A stretch of DNA of 64,000 nt. Source: an uncultured Lachnospiraceae bacterium (GTDB taxonomy: Bacteria > Bacillota > Clostridia > Lachnospirales > Lachnospiraceae). The number at the start of each line of letters is the position of its first letter. Position 1 is the first letter of the stretch. The stretch lies in assembly GCA_900314295.1 (NCBI GenBank), contig OMUU01000034.1:23335-87334 (forward strand), given 5' to 3'. Below are positions 40,013 to 50,673 of the stretch, in pieces. The notes under the pieces were generated by a model. That model saw nothing but the letters and a program-made list of their open reading frames with translations, was not told the origin of the DNA and made no database searches. The position numbers and the translations under genes were made by a program.

Positions 40013-41311
40013 TTATGCCTCAGGTTCGCTGTCTGCCTCCGGCTCCGCAGCATCTTCCGGAGCTTCTTCTCCAGCTTCGCTCACATGCTCCGGCTCTGTG
40101 GTTTCATCTTCCGCATCCCCGGTCTCCGGTTTATCTGTATCTTCTGTATCTTCGCCGCTTGTTTCATGAGCAGTCGGATCCGACGATTCTGCGGAATCCT
40201 CCTCGGACTCCTCCTCGTCATATTCATACTCCTCGTCGTCCTCATCATCTTCCGCGTATTCGTCAAAGAGTCCTTCTTCACGCGCCTGGGTCTCGCTCTT
40301 GATATCAATCTTGAACTGCGTCAGATGCGCCGCGAGGCGAGCATTCTGTCCCTCCTTGCCAATGGCCAGGGAAAGCTGATAATCCGGAACAATGACAAGC
40401 GCCTGCTTCTCATCCGGATCCGCAAGCACGGAGATAACCTTCGCCGGTGAAAGCGCATTCTCAATCAGATATGCCTGATTCTCGTCCCAGTTGATGATAT
40501 CGATCTTCTCTCCGTCCAATTCATCCACGATAGCGTTGACACGAGATCCGTTTACACCGACACATGCTCCGACTGCGTCCACGTTCGGCTCATTGCTGTA
40601 AACGGCAATCTTCGTACGCGATCCGGCTTCCCTTGCGATCGCCTTGATCTCGATCACACCGTCGCGGATTTCCGCGACCTCCTCCTCAAACAGCCGTTTT
40701 ACCAGCTCCGGATGCGTACGGGATACGAGAATCTTCGGACCCTTGGGGGTGTCCCTGACTTCAAGCACATAAACCTTGACTCTTTCTGTCGGCTTGAACT
40801 TTTCTCCCTTAACCATCTCCTTGGCCTTCAGGATTGCATCAACCTTTCCGAGATTGATACTGACATCCCGTCCGATATATCGCTGAACGACACCTGTGAC
40901 AACCTCATGCTCCTTCTCGAAGTATTCGTTGTACAGGGACTTTCTCTCCTCCTCGCGGATTTTCTGAAGAATGACATTCTTCGCATTCATCGTTGCAATT
41001 CGCCCGAAGCTCTTCGACTGAATCTCAACATTTACCGTGTCGCCGATCTGTGCCCTGGAATCTATCTTGAAGGCATCCTGCTGTCCGATCTCCGTCACCG
41101 GGTCCTCCACATGCTCAACCACCGTCTTTGCAGACAAAATGTGGTAATCACAGGTCTCCGGATCAATGGTGACTGTCACATTATCGGTTCGGTCATACTG
41201 ATTCTTGTAGGCCTGCAGAAGTGACTGCTGAATGGCTTCCAGAAGAGTATCCTTGCTGATCCCCTTTTCCTTTTCGAGAGTATTCAGAGCTTCCAGTAAC
41301 TCACTGTTCAT
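40013..41311 (-). CDS. nusA: Transcription termination/antitermination factor NusA
   Basis: This 432-residue protein has the RNA-polymerase-binding N-terminal domain (SKDTLLEAIQQSLLQAYKNQ), an S1 domain (EVVTGVVQRYIGRDVSINLG) and two KH domains (VGACVGVNGSRVNAIVDEL and LAIGKEGQNARLAAHLT). The final 95 residues are extremely acidic (Glu/Asp/Ser/Thr), a variable tail in place of the E. coli AR repeats. The gene follows rimP by 44 nt. Confidence 0.96.
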   Translation of the reverse strand: MNSELLEALNTLEKEKGISKDTLLEAIQQSLLQAYKNQYDRTDNVTVTIDPETCDYHILSAKTVVEHVEDPVTEIGQQDAFKIDSRAQIGDTVNVEIQSKSFGRIATMNAKNVILQKIREEERKSLYNEYFEKEHEVVTGVVQRYIGRDVSINLGKVDAILKAKEMVKGEKFKPTERVKVYVLEVRDTPKGPKILVSRTHPELVKRLFEEEVAEIRDGVIEIKAIAREAGSRTKIAVYSNEPNVDAVGACVGVNGSRVNAIVDELDGEKIDIINWDENQAYLIENALSPAKVISVLADPDEKQALVIVPDYQLSLAIGKEGQNARLAAHLTQFKIDIKSETQAREEGLFDEYAEDDEDDEEYEYDEEESEEDSAESSDPTAHETSGEDTEDTDKPETGDAEDETTEPEHVSEAGEEAPEDAAEPEADSEPEA

Positions 41312-41355: not shown

Positions 41356-41829
41356 TTAAAAATCAAACGCCATGCGAATCAGGGCGATCTCCTTCTTGTG
41401 AAAGGTCATCGGCTGTTCCGTTTCTTCTTCCACGATACTCACCGTATCTTTGTCATAGGCGGTAAGTATCCCGGTAAATTCCTTTGCGTGATCAATGAGC
41501 TTAAATGTATGGATCTCAATTCGCTGCCCCATCGCGCGCTGATAGTCTCTTTCCTTCTTCAGCGGCCTTCCAAGCCCCGGAGAGCTGACCTCCAGAATAT
41601 ACGAGTCTTCGATAAAATCCTGCTCGTCCAGCTTCTCGCCGAATACGCGGCTGATCTCTTCGCAGTCATTCACTGTGATTCCGCCATCCTTATCCGCATA
41701 TGCTCTCAGATACCAGCATCCGGCTTCTCGGACGTATTCCAGATCCACAAATTCGTAGTGCATCTCTTCCAGAATCGGAATCAGAATCGCTTCTGCCTTC
41801 TGCTCGATCGCTTCCGTCTTACTGCTCAC
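41356..41829 (-). CDS. rimP: Ribosome maturation factor RimP
   Basis: This 157-residue protein contains the RimP features FVDLEYVREAGCWYLRAYAD, then GGITVNDCEEISR and SSPGLGRPLKKERDY. It promotes 30S assembly. The start is GTG at 41829 behind AGGAG; the frame runs further upstream, but that part overlaps the leader hairpin. It is the first gene of the nine-gene translation operon. Confidence 0.94.
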   Translation of the reverse strand: MSSKTEAIEQKAEAILIPILEEMHYEFVDLEYVREAGCWYLRAYADKDGGITVNDCEEISRVFGEKLDEQDFIEDSYILEVSSPGLGRPLKKERDYQRAMGQRIEIHTFKLIDHAKEFTGILTAYDKDTVSIVEEETEQPMTFHKKEIALIRMAFDF

Positions 41830-41851
41830 GCAATCTCTCCTTTCACAAAAT

Positions 41852-41878
41852 AGGAGTGGGCTCTGCTCGCCCACTCCT
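41852..41878 (-). terminator. Leader hairpin (attenuator candidate) upstream of rimP
   Basis: A perfect 10-bp stem (AGGAGTGGGC and its complement, 7-nt loop) is followed by ATTTTG on the minus strand and lies between the promoter and rimP, with the 3' arm 22 nt before the start codon. A terminator here would make NusA-dependent autoregulation possible. Confidence 0.65.
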
Positions 41879-41903
41879 ACCATAGTCAACTATTAACAAA
41901 AAC

Positions 41904-41973: not shown

Positions 41974-44325
41974 CTACTGTTCACGCATCGGATCAGGTAA
42001 GGATTTTACCGCAGTCCTCTTCCTTGGCCTCGCCGACTCTGCCACATTCTCCTTTTTCCCGCCGGTCGTATGTTCAAAGGCCTCCGTAAACCGGAAAACC
42101 GATACCCCGAGCGGCGGCACCTTTATCTTGATAGAATCCTTTCGCTCGTCCTGCTCCACAGCACGGCTGAGCTTTACCCTCGGATTGGTTACACCGCTGC
42201 CGCCAAATGTCCCGTCGTCGCTGTTGAAAATTTCCTTGTACTTTCCCGGATAAGGTACTCCGACCATGAAATTGTCATACATAACGTTCGAGAAATTTGC
42301 GACAACCAGGAGGGTGTCTTTCTTATTCTCGGTCTTCCTTAGGAATACCAGAAGATTTCTCTCCCAGTCGAGGTTGCTGATCCACTCGAAGCCGTCCGCA
42401 TCCTCGTCAAGCCGGTACAGGGCAGGCTGCTCTCTGTAGAACTTCAGCAGCGCTCTGCTGAAATTCCGCATATTCTTCTGCTCTTCATTCTCCAGCTCGC
42501 CCCACGCGACGCCCTCCGACGCGCTCTTCCTCGATTTCTGACCAAAATCCTGCCCCTGGCAGATCAGCTTCTTGCCCGGATGCATCATCAGGTACGCAAA
42601 CGTCAGACGAAGGTTCGCCAGCTTCAGAGAATCATCCTTTCCCGGCATCATGCGAAGAAGGGATCTTCCATTCTCCAGAACATTGTGCGACAGGGCAAGC
42701 ATGAATTTTTCCGTATACATGTAAACCATGCTGAACGTAAGGTCATCCTGGTGAGATCCGCGGAAGAGAGGATCCAGCTGGATATACTTCAGATAATCGT
42801 CCATGCAGCCATTGTTCCACTTCAGGCTGAATCCGAGTCCTTCCTCCCTGGTGTTTCCCGTTACTGCCGGATAACCGGTCGTCTCCTCTGCAATCGTAAT
42901 CGCTCCGTGCCCGTTTGCCCGAATGTCGTTATTGAGATTCCGGAGAAACTCGATGTCCTCCAGGTTCTCATTGCCTCCGTACATATTGGCGATCCATTCC
43001 CCGTCGCGTCTCCCGTAGTTCAGATAGAGCATAGCAGACAGCTCCGGAAGCCGCAGCCCATCCGCGTGATATTCCGAAATCCAGAACATCGCGCTCGATT
43101 TCATGAAACTCTCGACCTCACCTCGCCCATAGTTGAAAATCAGGGCATTGTTGGAAGGGCATACTCCCTTCTTCGGGTCCATATGCTCATACAGGCAGGT
43201 CCCGTCAAAGGAAGCAAGACCGTCGTTCCCCCTTGCAAAATATCCCGGCACCCAGTCCAGAATCACACCGATTCCGTTCTGATGCAGCGTATCTACCAGA
43301 TATTTGAAATCTGCAGGCGTTCCGTACCGGCTGGTCGGAGCAAAAAATCCACTCGTGACATATCCCATGGTCTCATCGTCCGGGTACTCCATGACCGGCA
43401 TGAATTCCACGTGCGTGTAGCCCATATCCTTCAGATAACCGGCGAGATCCTCTGCGATATCCCGGTACAAGGCAGGCGCTTCTTCAACAATCTCCTCCCG
43501 CTCCTCTTCCTCTGGTTCTCCACTCTCCGGCTTCTTCCACGTTCCGATGTTGCATTCATAAACCGCCAGGGGCGAGCGCGACGGATCAAATGCCTCGCGC
43601 TCTGCCATCCACCTGCTGTCGTTCCAGTCATAACCGGTATCGGTGATCACCGACGCTGCCTCCGGAAGCTGCTGGCACCTGAATGCGAACGGATCTGCCT
43701 TCAGGTAGACAAGCCCCGCCTTCGCCTTGATCTCATATTTGTAAAAGCTTCCTGCCTTGATTCCCGGAACAAACAGCTCGAAAATTCCGCTCTCCAGGCG
43801 ATTCATCTGAAGCCTTCGTCCATCCCACTGGTTAAAGTCACCGACAACAGATACACGAAGCGCATTGGGTGCCCAAACCGCGAAATAAACGCCCTCTGTG
43901 CCATTAATATTCATCAGATGCGCACCCATTTTCTCCGGTGCCCTGTCCCAGATGCCCTCCCGGAACCGAATCTCCTCTTTCTCTGTGATCTGACACGGGA
44001 AGGCATACGGGTCCTTATATTCTGAAACGGTCCCGTCCTCGTGCAGAATCACAAATGTGTAATCCGGAATTCTCTTTCGATCCAGCATGACCGCAAAATA
44101 TCCCGCTTCGTCCTCCAGAACCATCGGAACGACATCCCCGGAAGCCATCTTCACGCTGACATTTTCCTCACCCGGAAAGAACGCTCGGATCAGGATGCCC
44201 CCCGGCACTACCTTCGGTCCCAGAACCTTCCTCGGGGAATCCTCCTCCGCGTACACTACAGCTTCGATCTCTGCCCAATCCATCAGGTCATAGATTCTGC
44301 TTTCCATACTTTCTTTCATGCTCAT
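41974..44325 (-). CDS. GlgB-like GH13 protein lacking catalytic residues (probable pseudoenzyme)
   Basis: This 783-residue protein aligns end to end with glycogen branching enzymes: N1 domain (about 25-110), CBM48 (133-225, VGDFNQWDGR), a GH13 barrel and a C-terminal beta domain (HPGKKLICQGQDFGQ). The nucleophile site, normally DGxRxDAV, reads DGLRLPEL with Pro427 in place of Asp. The transition-state Asp of SHDE is Asn548 (SHNVLENG), and the barrel His of DWVPxHF is Tyr362. The acid/base motif AEETT (480-481) remains. An acidic insertion lies near residue 270. The ATG at 44325 follows AGGAGG. No other glycogen gene is nearby. It is probably a carbohydrate-binding or regulatory protein rather than an active transferase. 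Confidence 0.85.
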   Translation of the reverse strand: MSMKESMESRIYDLMDWAEIEAVVYAEEDSPRKVLGPKVVPGGILIRAFFPGEENVSVKMASGDVVPMVLEDEAGYFAVMLDRKRIPDYTFVILHEDGTVSEYKDPYAFPCQITEKEEIRFREGIWDRAPEKMGAHLMNINGTEGVYFAVWAPNALRVSVVGDFNQWDGRRLQMNRLESGIFELFVPGIKAGSFYKYEIKAKAGLVYLKADPFAFRCQQLPEAASVITDTGYDWNDSRWMAEREAFDPSRSPLAVYECNIGTWKKPESGEPEEEEREEIVEEAPALYRDIAEDLAGYLKDMGYTHVEFMPVMEYPDDETMGYVTSGFFAPTSRYGTPADFKYLVDTLHQNGIGVILDWVPGYFARGNDGLASFDGTCLYEHMDPKKGVCPSNNALIFNYGRGEVESFMKSSAMFWISEYHADGLRLPELSAMLYLNYGRRDGEWIANMYGGNENLEDIEFLRNLNNDIRANGHGAITIAEETTGYPAVTGNTREEGLGFSLKWNNGCMDDYLKYIQLDPLFRGSHQDDLTFSMVYMYTEKFMLALSHNVLENGRSLLRMMPGKDDSLKLANLRLTFAYLMMHPGKKLICQGQDFGQKSRKSASEGVAWGELENEEQKNMRNFSRALLKFYREQPALYRLDEDADGFEWISNLDWERNLLVFLRKTENKKDTLLVVANFSNVMYDNFMVGVPYPGKYKEIFNSDDGTFGGSGVTNPRVKLSRAVEQDERKDSIKIKVPPLGVSVFRFTEAFEHTTGGKKENVAESARPRKRTAVKSLPDPMREQ
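41977..42023 (+). repeat. Diverged element B copy overlapping the 3' end of the GlgB-like gene
   Basis: TACTGTTCACGC, then AAGGATTTTACCGCAGTCCT, resembles copy 1 at 20167. If homologous, the repeat supplies the last 15 or so codons of the GlgB-like gene. Confidence 0.4.
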
Positions 44326-44380
44326 CTGGTATCCTCCTGAAAAAAAAAGCTTTCCCCCATCCTGCAAACGAGATAAAACA

Positions 44381-44420
44381 GGAACCAAAGCACTGTCCCT
44401 TCTGACAGAACTTTGGTTCC
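44381..44420 (-). terminator. Terminator of ftsH
   Basis: A 10-bp perfect stem GGAACCAAAG/CTTTGGTTCC encloses a second CTGTC/GACAG stem and is followed by TGTTTTATC on the minus strand. It starts 14 nt after the ftsH stop. Confidence 0.75.
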
Positions 44421-44421
44421 C

Positions 44422-44451
44422 ATTATACATCATTTTATTCCGATGTCGCAA
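44422..44451 (-). promoter_or_regulatory. Promoter of the GlgB-like gene, overlapping the ftsH stop codon
   Basis: TTGCGA and TATAAT are 18 nt apart on the minus strand. The predicted start of transcription falls inside the 5' arm of the ftsH terminator, so transcripts from this promoter would lose part of that stem. Confidence 0.5.
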
Positions 44452-46324
44452 CCGAGCTGCTGCTTCCTGCGGCGCTCTGATTTTGATCTGGTATGAGCTC
44501 CGGCTTCTTCTCGAGAATCTCCATAAACTCCTCACCGGTAATTGTCTCCCGCTCATAGAGATACTTGGCAAGCTCATGAAGCTTTGGCATATTGGCGGAA
44601 AGCAGTGCTTTGGCCTTGCTGTACGCGTCATGCACGATCTTTACAACCATCTGGTCGATCTTGCCCGATGTAGCTTCCGAACAGGCAAGGGAAGTATCCC
44701 CGCCCAAGTACTGATTTGTCACGGTTTCCATTGCAACCATTCCAAATTCATCGCTCATGCCGAACCGCGTCACCATGGCCCTCGCAAGCTTCGTCGCCTG
44801 TTCGATATCATTCGACGCTCCCGTTGTCACAGAATGGAAGATCAGTTCCTCCGCGACACGTCCGCCGGTAAGTGTGGCGATCCGGTTCACGATCTCCTCC
44901 TTGCTCATCAGGTTGTGCTCTCCCTCGTCCACCTGAAGAGTGTATCCGAGAGCTCCCGAAGTTCTGGGAATAATCGTGATCTTTGTGACAGGCGCGGAAT
45001 GGCTTTGCAGAGCGGCTACAAGAGCGTGACCGGTCTCATGATAGGAGACAATCAGCTTTTCCTTCGTCGTCAGTACCTTGTTCTTCTTCTGGTATCCGGC
45101 AATTACGGTCTCAACGCTCTCCATCAGATCGTTCTGGGTGACAAACTTTCTTCCGTCACGAACCGCCCGGAGAGCCGCCTCATTGATCATATTAGCCAGC
45201 TCGGCTCCACTTGCACCGGAAGCGGTGCGCGCCACCGCATTAAAGTCTACATTATCGGAAATCCGGATGTCCTTTGCATGAAGCCTGAGAATTTCCTCTC
45301 TTCCCTTCAGATCCGGAAGCTCTACCGGAATTCTCCGGTCAAAACGGCCCGGACGCGTCAGAGCCGGATCCAGGGAATCCGGACGGTTGGTCGCCGCAAG
45401 GATAATGACACCCTTTCGTCCGTCAAATCCATCCATCTCCGCAAGCAGCTGGTTCAATGTCTGTTCACGCTCGTCGTTGCCGGAGAAGCCTCCGCCGTCA
45501 CGTTTCTTTCCGATGGTATCAATCTCATCGATAAATACGATACACGGTGCTTTATCATTGGCCTGCTTAAAAAGATCACGGACCTTCGCCGCGCCCATTC
45601 CGACGAACATCTCTACAAATTCGGAACCCGAAATAGAGAAGAACGGAACATTCGCCTCGCCGGCGACGGCCTTCGCAAGGAGCGTCTTACCGGTTCCGGG
45701 AGGGCCTACCAGGAGAGCGCCCTTCGGCATCTTTGCGCCGATCTCGGTATATTTCTGCGGATTATGCAGGAAGTCCACGATCTCCTGCAACAGCTCCTTC
45801 GCCTCATCCTCACCGGCCACATCCTTGAACTTGATGCCCGTCTCGGACTGGATATATACCTTGGCGTTGCTCTTTCCAAAGCTCATGGCATCGCCCATGC
45901 CTCCGCCCATCCGCTTCGTCATGGAGGTCATCAGCCATCTTCCAAGGAAATAGAAAATCACAAGCGGCAGAACCCAGCTGAGAATAAAGCTTAATACCGG
46001 CGACATCTGCTGTTGAATCGGGCTCTCAAAATCCTTGATTCCCGCTGAGAGCAGACGGTCTACCAGCTTATAATCATCCATCATGCCGGTGCGGTACATA
46101 TTGCCCGATTCATCCTTGAACGTGATTTCGTTGTCGGAAGAGTTCACCTCTACCTGGCTCACCTTCCCGTCCCCGAGCATCTCAATGAAGTTGCCGTATG
46201 TAGTATCCTGCACCTTGGCACTGTTGATCTGCGGGATCAGAAGGAAATTGAGAAGGAGCAGAACCAGCAGCACGATTGCATAATAAAACGCGATCGGCTT
46301 CCTATCGTTTTTTACCTCTTTCAA
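44435..46324 (-). CDS. ftsH: ATP-dependent zinc metalloprotease FtsH
   Basis: This 629-residue membrane protease has two N-terminal membrane segments flanking an extracytoplasmic domain. An AAA module follows with Walker A GPPGTGKT, Walker [12 protein letters not shown], and the second region of homology [20 protein letters not shown]. The zinc site is HETGH, with the third ligand in the [12 protein letters not shown] region. It degrades membrane and regulatory proteins. A good promoter lies about 105 nt upstream of the start codon, and the C-terminus is Ser-rich. Confidence 0.97.
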
Positions 46325-48657: not shown

Positions 48658-50673
48658 TTATTTTTCCTCCTTTACGAAGCGTTCCGGCAGGATCGTCACC
48701 TTTGCATTTCCCGTAAGTCCATCCCGCTCACGGTAATCGAATACCACGGGAACCGGTTTGTCCCCAGGCGCCTTCAGGAACCGATTTTCCGGAGCCGCAA
48801 AGCCGCTGACAATCAGCGTTTCCGGAAGAAAAACATCCCCGTGAAGCATCCGCCGGTCTGGTTTTTCACCCATCTTTTCCCTGCAGCATCTGTGAAAAAG
48901 ATCACGGTAGGGGGTGAGATCGCGCGCCCACTCCGGTCGGCTCCGGCTGTTCTCCCTCAAATACAGGTCCAGAACCAGAAGTTCCCGGTACAATTCCTCA
49001 TGTTCCGGATCATAAGCCCTAGCGAAGCCGCGAAGCGCCTCAAACCGCTCCGGTCGGGACAGGTTGATCTCCGTGAGATGATGCATGCTATAATAGTCTG
49101 CCAGACTGCTGTACAAATGAAAAGGACTTCCGTCCCGTTCCGTAAGCACACGCATGGTACAGCTAAACTGCCAGCTGTTGTAATACACCTCGACCATTTC
49201 TTCGATTTCCTTCAGTCGCAGGACGTCATCGTAGCTCAGCCATTTCGTCCGGATCACCTCGTACGGCGCCCTCTTATGACATACGATGCCGAATTTTTCA
49301 GCATCTCTATAGAGGGCGGATCCCTTCAGCAATTTTAAAAATCCCATCTGGAGCTGCTGCGGCTGCATCCGGTAAACCTCATCAAACGACCGGCCAAAGC
49401 TCTCCAGATTTTCTTCCGGAAGTCCCGCGATCAGATCCAGGTGCTGGTGAATATTGCCTGCCGCATGAATTTCCGATACGATCTGCCGCAGGTGATCGAT
49501 CTTCTGCGGACGGCGAATCGCGCAGAGCGTCGCCGGATTTGTGGACTGCACGCCGATCTCCAGCTGCACAAGCCCCGGTCTCATGCGCGAAAGCAGCCGG
49601 ATTTCGTCCTCCGTCAGAAGTTCCGCCTCGATTTCAAAATGGAAATTTGTGATTCCATTGTCATGCTCCAGGATATATTGCCAGATCGCCGTCGCGTGTG
49701 CGTGATCACAATTAAATGTCCGATCCACAAACTTAACCTGCGGAACTCCCGCGTCCAGAAAGAATTGAAGCTCCCGCTTTACCTGTTCAAGGCTTCGGAA
49801 GCGGACCTTGTTCCCAATCGACGACAGGCAGTAGCTGCATTGGAAGGGACAGCCGCGGCTGCTCTCATAATAAATGATCCTGTGATCAAACGCGCGAAGA
49901 ACCTCCTCGCCGGAAGGCTCGACGTCTCTGTAAAAAAAAGGGATCTCATCGAGATCCGGCATCTCCGAGGGGACGTTTCTATGGATTTCCCGCGTTTCTT
50001 CCTTCGAGACCGCGTTTTTCGCTGAAACATCCTTCCTGCCTGAACCATCCTTCCTGTCACTGCGGTATACGATTCCCCCGATCCCGCTGAATTCCGGCTC
50101 CGATCCGCTTCTTTCTGCCGACTCATAGGCGCTTACCAACCTCGTGAAGGTGATTTCTCCTTCTCCAACCATGACACCCCTGAGGTCCGGAAAATTCCGC
50201 AGTACCTGCGCCGCATCATAGCTGACCTCCGGACCGCCGAGCCAGAACTCCGCCCTCGGAAGTATCTGATGGAGATCGGCGAGCAGAGATCCAATATACG
50301 CCATATTCCACACATAGCAGGAAAATGCGATCACATCCGGATGCCTGCGGTAGAGATCCGCAAGGACACGGTCCGGCTGCTGGTTGATCGTATATTCCGC
50401 CAGTTCTATAACCGTCTCCGCACCTTTCTCTCCGAGCATCGCCCTGATTTTCGAGCGACATGATCCCGCATACGCCCCCTGGAGTCCCATGTCACTCGAA
50501 TCTGCCGGCGCCCTGTATCCTTCCCGCTCACTCGAATCTGCTAATGCCCTTTGCCCTTCTCTGTCACAGATCCCCAAGGATTTTCGTCTCTTTTCGGCAA
50601 ACGCCTTCAGGTCACGAATGGCGAGATTCGAATGTATGAATTTCGCATTGACCGCCACAAGTATTATTTTCAC
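48658..50673 (-). CDS. B12-binding-domain radical SAM protein (DUF4080-type C-terminus)
   Basis: This 671-residue protein has an N-terminal cobalamin-binding-like Rossmann domain (YTINQQPDRVLADLYRRHPD, then FWLGGPEVSYDA), a radical-SAM core with cluster CPFQCSYC in YESSRGCPFQCSYCL, and a long C-terminal region ending in KVTILPERFV, as in DUF4080 proteins. Between residues 35 and 70 a short repeated segment (REG-RALADSSE / REGYRAPADSSD) is a local insertion. The substrate is unknown; the family contains methyltransferases and other C-C/C-S forming enzymes. Confidence 0.85.
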   Translation of the reverse strand: MKIILVAVNAKFIHSNLAIRDLKAFAEKRRKSLGICDREGQRALADSSEREGYRAPADSSDMGLQGAYAGSCRSKIRAMLGEKGAETVIELAEYTINQQPDRVLADLYRRHPDVIAFSCYVWNMAYIGSLLADLHQILPRAEFWLGGPEVSYDAAQVLRNFPDLRGVMVGEGEITFTRLVSAYESAERSGSEPEFSGIGGIVYRSDRKDGSGRKDVSAKNAVSKEETREIHRNVPSEMPDLDEIPFFYRDVEPSGEEVLRAFDHRIIYYESSRGCPFQCSYCLSSIGNKVRFRSLEQVKRELQFFLDAGVPQVKFVDRTFNCDHAHATAIWQYILEHDNGITNFHFEIEAELLTEDEIRLLSRMRPGLVQLEIGVQSTNPATLCAIRRPQKIDHLRQIVSEIHAAGNIHQHLDLIAGLPEENLESFGRSFDEVYRMQPQQLQMGFLKLLKGSALYRDAEKFGIVCHKRAPYEVIRTKWLSYDDVLRLKEIEEMVEVYYNSWQFSCTMRVLTERDGSPFHLYSSLADYYSMHHLTEINLSRPERFEALRGFARAYDPEHEELYRELLVLDLYLRENSRSRPEWARDLTPYRDLFHRCCREKMGEKPDRRMLHGDVFLPETLIVSGFAAPENRFLKAPGDKPVPVVFDYRERDGLTGNAKVTILPERFVKEEK

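Follow-up and report, generated by a model that had tools for sequence, protein, structure and literature searches.

A branching-enzyme homologue without its catalytic nucleophile, conserved beside ftsH in Lachnospiraceae, as a candidate non-catalytic partner of intact GlgB

We analyzed a 64,000-nucleotide stretch of DNA from an uncultured Lachnospiraceae bacterium (the window, meaning the whole of that stretch), in which a gene here designated glgB* encodes a homologue of the glycogen branching enzyme GlgB with proline in place of the catalytic nucleophile. Its orthologues have lost the same nucleophile, lie directly downstream of ftsH wherever that side can be seen, evolve under purifying selection and occur in genomes that also carry a GlgB gene with canonical motifs, and comparable losses recur elsewhere in the family. 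We regard glgB* as a conserved bacterial branching-enzyme pseudoenzyme of a recurrent kind, and put the probability at roughly 0.55 that it acts as a non-catalytic glucan-binding partner of intact GlgB.

Read from 44325 to 41974 on the minus strand, glgB* is a single open frame of 783 aa. An earlier analysis made from the letters alone (the sequence-only reading) had placed the gene at 41974..44325, which proved exact, without naming the strand. The product matches the NCBIfam models NF008967 (722 bits, cut-off 577) and TIGR01515 (673 bits, cut-off 464) and falls just under the cut-off of NF003811 (739 against 741 bits), whereas the GlgX model gives 70 bits (cut-off 641), compared with 670-740 bits for the best GlgB models. 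Judged by these scores, glgB* is a GlgB (GH13_9) by descent and not a member of the ISA2 family (GH13_11). Its domain order is also that of GlgB: GlgB_N (PF22019, residues 17-107, 44005..44277), CBM48 (PF02922, residues 132-214, 43684..43932), a GH13 (beta/alpha)8 barrel (about residues 251-640, 42406..43575, limits approximate and taken from Protein Data Bank (PDB) relatives and a model) and an all-beta C-terminal domain (PF02806, residues 648-746, 42088..42384), all on the minus strand and, apart from the barrel, delimited by Pfam. The best solved relatives are branching enzymes, with that of Cyanothece giving the best E-value (4e-183). The predicted structural model was modest (predicted local distance difference test (pLDDT) 66, predicted template-modelling score (pTM) 0.68) and, built on a 24-row alignment, too weak for conclusions about pocket geometry. 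Among the fold matches listed for the model, all 50 were branching enzymes, and the top one, 5gqu, gave template-modelling (TM) scores of 0.71/0.74 at a root-mean-square deviation of 10 A; the deviation was large for the four-domain matches. The short Pfam match to the barrel (residues 296-360) was considered as a sign of degeneracy and dropped, the match of the intact homologue L117 being similarly short.

In place of the catalytic Asp-Glu-Asp residues and the barrel His of branching enzyme (EC 2.4.1.18), the protein carries P427 (nucleophile position, codon 43045..43047), E480 (the acid/base Glu, retained, 42886..42888), N548 (stabilizing Asp, 42682..42684) and Y362 (barrel His, 43240..43242), all encoded on the minus strand. 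In the Cyanothece branching enzyme the residues aligned with P427, Y362 and N548 are Asp, His and Asp, so the three substitutions and their numbering in the sequence-only reading are exact; the alignment runs without a gap from the motif before P427 to the motif after it, and none of the alignments gives the Asp at the nucleophile position whose presence would have counted against that reading. We infer that the protein would be inactive in vitro, as these residues strongly imply.

The sequence-only reading had also suggested looking for orthologues with lost catalytic residues, and these were found, with open frames and under purifying selection. The orthologous gene is present in 12 of 16 genomes of the genus, and the nucleophile is lost in all 12 (five have P there, five N, one G and one S). 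Because the 11 other same-genus orthologues likewise lack the nucleophile (P, N, G or S), the substitution is very unlikely to reflect faulty sequencing or a misplaced alignment. Three members of two further genera (L022, L247 and L266) bring the clade to 15 members in three genera. The gene lies directly downstream of ftsH in 13 of the 15, with 40-460 bp separating it from the point where the FtsH match ends, and the contigs of the other two (L005 and L026) end before that point. Downstream, rimP follows in eight members (L001, L005, L011, L012, L013, L026, L247 and L266); it was not found within the available downstream stretch of six (L006, L007, L009, L010, L014 and L022), and the contig of L008 is cut. 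All 15 frames are open as far as the sequence reaches, and none of the rapid frame decay that the sequence-only reading had held would speak against it was seen in the relatives examined, though one same-genus genome, G008, shows no copy between ftsH and rimP.

In a 58-row tree, which did not include L178 and L280, the 13 ftsH-clade copies formed one clade (100/100), the nearest intact rows being L118 and L117, a gene that itself directly follows an ftsH and whose fork is weak (85/13). A 168-row tree, obtained by a short search and without bootstrap, again placed the 15 members in one clade (Shimodaira-Hasegawa-like approximate likelihood-ratio test (SH-aLRT) 100), with the degenerate L178 and the intact L280 as its sister (96); the next rows were L117 and L118, with a support of 0. 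No ftsH appears in the available stretch of L280, and the upstream side of L178 is cut by a contig end. An active ancestor may thus already have stood beside ftsH and been inactivated in place.

Conservation was measured as the ratio of non-synonymous to synonymous substitution rates (dN/dS, Nei-Gojobori) in six orthologue pairs, which are not independent, three of them sharing members. The ratio was 0.048-0.093 for glgB* at dS of 0.5-1.8, compared with 0.010-0.055 for intact GlgB and 0.015-0.070 for FtsH from the same genome pairs, and glgB* was the less conserved in all six. Most of these ratios are rough because dS is near or above 1 in five of the six pairs; the least saturated pair, L012/L013, gave 0.066 at dS 0.50, and the pair P0001/L036 (0.035, dS 2.7) was excluded as saturated. 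The separate domains gave 0.03-0.11 in the four pairs where they could be computed. The low ratios across orthologues bear out the argument for selection that the sequence-only reading had drawn from the intact frame, and by this measure glgB* is maintained for some purpose, with a constraint looser than that of the enzyme. That it is a redundant copy in decay, an unneeded second GlgB drifting towards loss, would agree with the existence of intact copies, with the lower conservation in six of six pairs and with the one relative, G008, that has no gene at the syntenic place. We regard this as very improbable, given how low dN/dS stays at such synonymous distances, the open frames throughout the clade and the concentration of the losses in the barrel near the catalytic motifs, which is non-random.

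The distribution of the losses was traced over positions whose invariance reaches 95% or more among 144 intact full-length copies, of which the family supplied 138 and outside genomes six. Counting a position as kept at 90% or more and as lost at 34% or less, the clade keeps 130 and loses 29; in the barrel 26 are lost and 75 kept, and elsewhere three are lost and 55 kept (Fisher p 0.001, intermediate positions standing outside the test). The lost positions cluster at the catalytic motifs, and none lies in the N- or C-terminal domains: from residue 641 onwards 13 active-invariant positions are kept and none is lost, and segment 116-250, which holds CBM48, keeps 32 and loses three (127, 130 and 220, outside the Pfam match). 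Further conserved residues are particular to the clade, among them F328, A364, G366, G484 and N651-D653.

The genome of the window contains two further GlgB-type genes with canonical motifs, L002 (45% identical to glgB*) and L003 (36%), so the second intact glgB that the sequence-only reading had thought worth searching for does exist. L002 has CBM48, barrel and C-terminal domains; its GlgB_N match is below the cut-off and overlaps CBM48, and it is therefore taken to have no separate N-terminal domain. A companion GlgB with canonical motifs is present in every one of the 23 genomes in which a degenerate copy was found, and in 21 of them a single frame holds all four motifs. In G015 the four motifs of the companion (L310, G015:C47) are spread over two frames on one contig, either through a frameshift or through an assembly error, the ftsH of that genome (L157) being likewise split; in G014 the companion is cut by a contig end after the first motif. 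Glycogen synthase scores above its family cut-off in 14 of the 16 same-genus genomes.

Several side observations concern these intact genes. L003 (on C140) is a divergent third GlgB-type gene and lies downstream of a transporter gene, which we take from its sequence to be MgtE-like. In 13 ftsH-clade genomes the core GAH motif of the intact GlgB (L002, L287-L295, L297, L299 and L310) is preceded by about 75-185 residues, subject to uncertainty over the start codons, and these extensions are mostly Lys/Ala-rich and histone-like. The stretch is shorter, 32-58 residues, in L298, L300, L301, L303, L305, L388 and L389. Yet it measures 105 residues in G008 (L296), which has no glgB*, and 94 in the non-clade L304. 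The intact GlgB of the window genome (L002) differs from the copies in G002 and G004 (L287 and L288) by dS of 0.08 and 0.52, and FtsH and glgB* both give 0.6-1.0 to the same two genomes; such values suggest that the intact gene was recently exchanged.

Catalytic loss extends beyond the ftsH clade. A copy was called degenerate if it departed from expectation at the nucleophile, acid/base, stabilizer or barrel His position, and intact if all four were as expected. By this definition 13 of 150 full-length family copies are degenerate. These 150, in sets of 30 (two same-genus copies included), 111 and nine, are the best-scoring matches listed for a profile built from degenerate members and run on a draw of 397 family genomes, 380 of which matched, and because the sample was chosen by such a profile the fraction is not a population frequency. 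Before counting, same-gene duplicates (L034-L036, L116, L119, L132 and L001) and the distant L003 were dropped, and L002 was also excluded from the column counts. In an out-of-family control from the same order all catalytic positions were intact in 52 of 52 copies, most genomes having one match (13/150 against 0/52, p 0.02, for a draw that was not random); three of the six outside genomes among the 144 intact copies recur in this control. With the other genus members added, the total is 23 degenerate proteins in 23 genomes, eight of them outside the ftsH clade. They lack the nucleophile Asp in 21 cases, the barrel His in 21, the stabilizing Asp in 15 and the acid/base Glu in two, so that E480 is kept in 21 of 23. 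From their residues, L220 and L281, which keep the nucleophile Asp, and L233, which has Glu there, may perhaps retain some activity. In the 168-row tree the degenerate copies fall into six groups, three of which (L178, L283 and L281) are weakly joined to their neighbours, and parsimony requires six changes, five of them forced by supported branches. On this tree, loss of the catalytic site happened more than once among the relatives.

The position directly after the nucleophile behaves differently. At position 428 (E428 in the window protein, codon 43042..43044, minus strand), 142 of the 144 intact full-length copies have Ala and none has an acid. Asp or Glu stands there in 20 of the 23 degenerate copies, namely in all 15 of the ftsH clade and in five of the eight others, which spreads the acid over four of the six groups, in one of these through one of two members. 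Of the remaining 186 invariant positions that are not acidic, none gained an acid in at least half of the members in more than two groups. An alignment slip does not account for the acid at 428, because the window protein aligns without a gap from DGLR to MLYL. We take the Ala to be equivalent to Ala230 of cyclodextrin glycosyltransferase, which lines acceptor subsite +1. The A230V change in that enzyme is reported to alter reaction specificity (PMC8587830). The acid may block subsite +1, may replace the nucleophile as the partner of Arg425 or may make a new ligand site, and no other feature of the case is so poorly explained.

The last of these options leads to a repurposed active site, in which E/D428 together with the retained E480, D357 and R/K425 would create a new ligand-binding site or a changed catalytic centre, such as that of a maltodextrin sensor or of an enzyme for another sugar reaction. 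The recurrent gain of acid in four of six clades, unmatched at other invariant positions, and the retention of E480 in nearly all degenerate copies argue for such a site. Unlike in a new catalytic centre, however, positions 362 (Y/G/C/S/F) and 548 (N/S/D/Q/R) are free to vary among the ftsH-clade orthologues, and the acid is absent from two of the six clades and from one of the two members of a third. On balance we think a repurposed site unlikely, and it is equally doubtful that the carboxylate which branching-enzyme paralogues repeatedly evolved beside the retained Glu, one residue on from the lost nucleophile, marks an old pocket converted several times into the same kind of site for ligand binding or catalysis. 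If it does, these proteins would form a new functional class, as glucan sensors or enzymes of altered chemistry, and not passive scaffolds.

The constant neighbour raises a further alternative, that glgB* is an FtsH-linked regulator which, as an adaptor, substrate or membrane tether of FtsH, would couple the glycogen state to proteolysis. The adjacency itself, unbroken except where contig ends cut it, is what speaks for this. It was set aside as proof of an FtsH function, however, since the intact L117, near the base of the clade although weakly placed, shares it, so that the linkage may predate inactivation. Six of the eight degenerate copies outside the clade have upstream sequence without ftsH (the contigs of the remaining two, L178 and L274, end), an RNA hairpin (44377..44424, minus strand, -28.8 kcal/mol, z -6.7) lies between ftsH and glgB* in the window, and a literature search on FtsH, glycogen and branching enzyme returned nothing relevant among the matches listed. 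An FtsH-linked regulator seems improbable to us.

A non-catalytic glucan-binding partner of intact GlgB remains the favoured role for glgB*. The sequence-only reading had proposed, as a possibility, a glucan-binding scaffold or regulator; the recurrence, the linkage to ftsH and the acid beside the nucleophile position formed no part of it. The ancestor of the gene would have been a full-length and active GlgB, a second copy being present in many genomes of the family. As the other copy supplied branching, the pocket would have lost the nucleophile, the barrel His and often the stabilizing Asp, while purifying selection would have retained the fold and the other domains. The present protein is predicted to bind chains of glycogen or maltodextrin but leave them uncut and, with intact GlgB, to shape or localize branching, either in a complex or by presenting chains or keeping them occupied, in a mode we liken to that of the non-catalytic ISA2 with ISA1 in plants. 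Branching enzymes are reported to have many glucan-binding sites outside the active site, twelve in the E. coli enzyme (PMC10254366; PMC6243121), and for this reason glgB* could still bind glycogen without catalysis.

Some points weigh against this role. No orthologue was found in four of the 16 same-genus genomes (G001, G003, G008 and G013). In G008, rimP and nusA come straight after ftsH, the matches lying about 340 bp apart, which makes glgB* dispensable at least there; G001, G003 and G013 each gave a GlgB match of intact type, and loss is unproven because the matching ftsH was not seen (G001, G003) or, in G013, has other neighbours (68% match). A pure scaffold would account neither for the retention of E480 nor for the acid gained at 428. 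Two specific forms of the partnership were also discarded. Supply in trans of an N-terminal domain missing from the partner fits the window genome and is not general, because the intact GlgBs of G131 and G024, whose degenerate copies lie outside the ftsH clade, carry that domain; and pairing of an acidic pseudoenzyme with a basic tail on intact GlgB fails, net charge being similar in degenerate and intact full-length copies.

The gene belongs to a housekeeping block which reads, in order of transcription, M18 aminopeptidase, greA, ftsH (44435..46324, identified by Pfam/NCBIfam and the relatives' loci), glgB*, rimP (41356..41889), nusA (40013..41311; both by Pfam/NCBIfam), a 106-codon open frame and infB, the genes with coordinates lying on the minus strand. 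An AGGAGG ribosome-binding site (44333..44338, minus strand) stands 7 bp before the start codon of glgB*. The sequence-only reading had given the gene a promoter of its own; a promoter-like TTGCGA-18-TATAAT is indeed present (44422..44451, minus strand), but it is weak evidence, as it overlaps the end of ftsH and is directly followed by the strong hairpin, which overlaps it and is possibly an ftsH terminator, a processing site or an attenuator. Thirteen of the 16 same-genus genomes have three FtsH-type matches each, and the ftsH of the gene block alone was used in the comparisons. Elsewhere in the window, 48658-50673 on the minus strand encodes a B12-binding radical SAM protein with DUF4080 (Pfam), which reached no NCBIfam cut-off among the best 25 of 31 families listed.

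Compared with GlgB itself (GH13 subfamily 9; Cyanothece 5gqu, E. coli 1m7x), glgB* has the same four domains and fold, similarity over about 730 residues and the acid/base Glu, and it differs in the replaced nucleophile Asp, barrel His and stabilizing Asp, to which its clade adds the loss of cleft residues at W320, Q323, H552 and others. FdBE2 of Faecalibacterium (21jh, 21kg) is likewise a branching-enzyme structure, 33% identical over the glgB* model; unlike glgB*, it is described in its entries as a branching enzyme and has a maltohexaose complex. As glgB* shows, some proteins annotated as 'GlgB' above curated cut-offs lack a nucleophile, and metabolic reconstruction would be misled by them.

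GH13 pseudoenzymes are already known as a kind. The ectodomain of 4F2hc/SLC3A2 is reported to have kept the GH13 barrel after loss of the catalytic triad, as glgB* has, but it is a subunit of animal transporters in an unrelated context (PMC8537225), and a review tabulates some isoforms in the glycogen gene sets of Archaea as inactive (PMC11046441). In the open-licence papers searched we found no recurrent bacterial GlgB pseudoenzyme with a convergent new acid. The closest parallel is plant ISA2, whose nucleophile is reported to be altered in all the sequences examined, and which shows an elevated rate, carries an additional beta-sandwich at the N-terminus and forms complexes with ISA1 (PMC12510319). 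Like ISA2, glgB* is a non-catalytic GH13 paralogue kept beside an active one, with the nucleophile lost, an elevated rate and an N-terminal domain that the active partner lacks (as seen for L002 and the ftsH clade, and not in every genome with a degenerate copy). ISA2 belongs to the GH13_11 debranching lineage of plants and has a demonstrated complex, whereas glgB* belongs to the bacterial branching-enzyme lineage, in which the degenerate copies have several origins, and has a putative partner; it is an analogue and not a relative by descent, because the window protein belongs to the GlgB line. Why a non-catalytic isoamylase stays under selection is, according to the ISA2 paper, not understood (PMC12510319). 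With five forced changes, intact sister genes and a relative without the gene, the bacterial counterpart turns this question about ISA2 into a comparative and experimental one.

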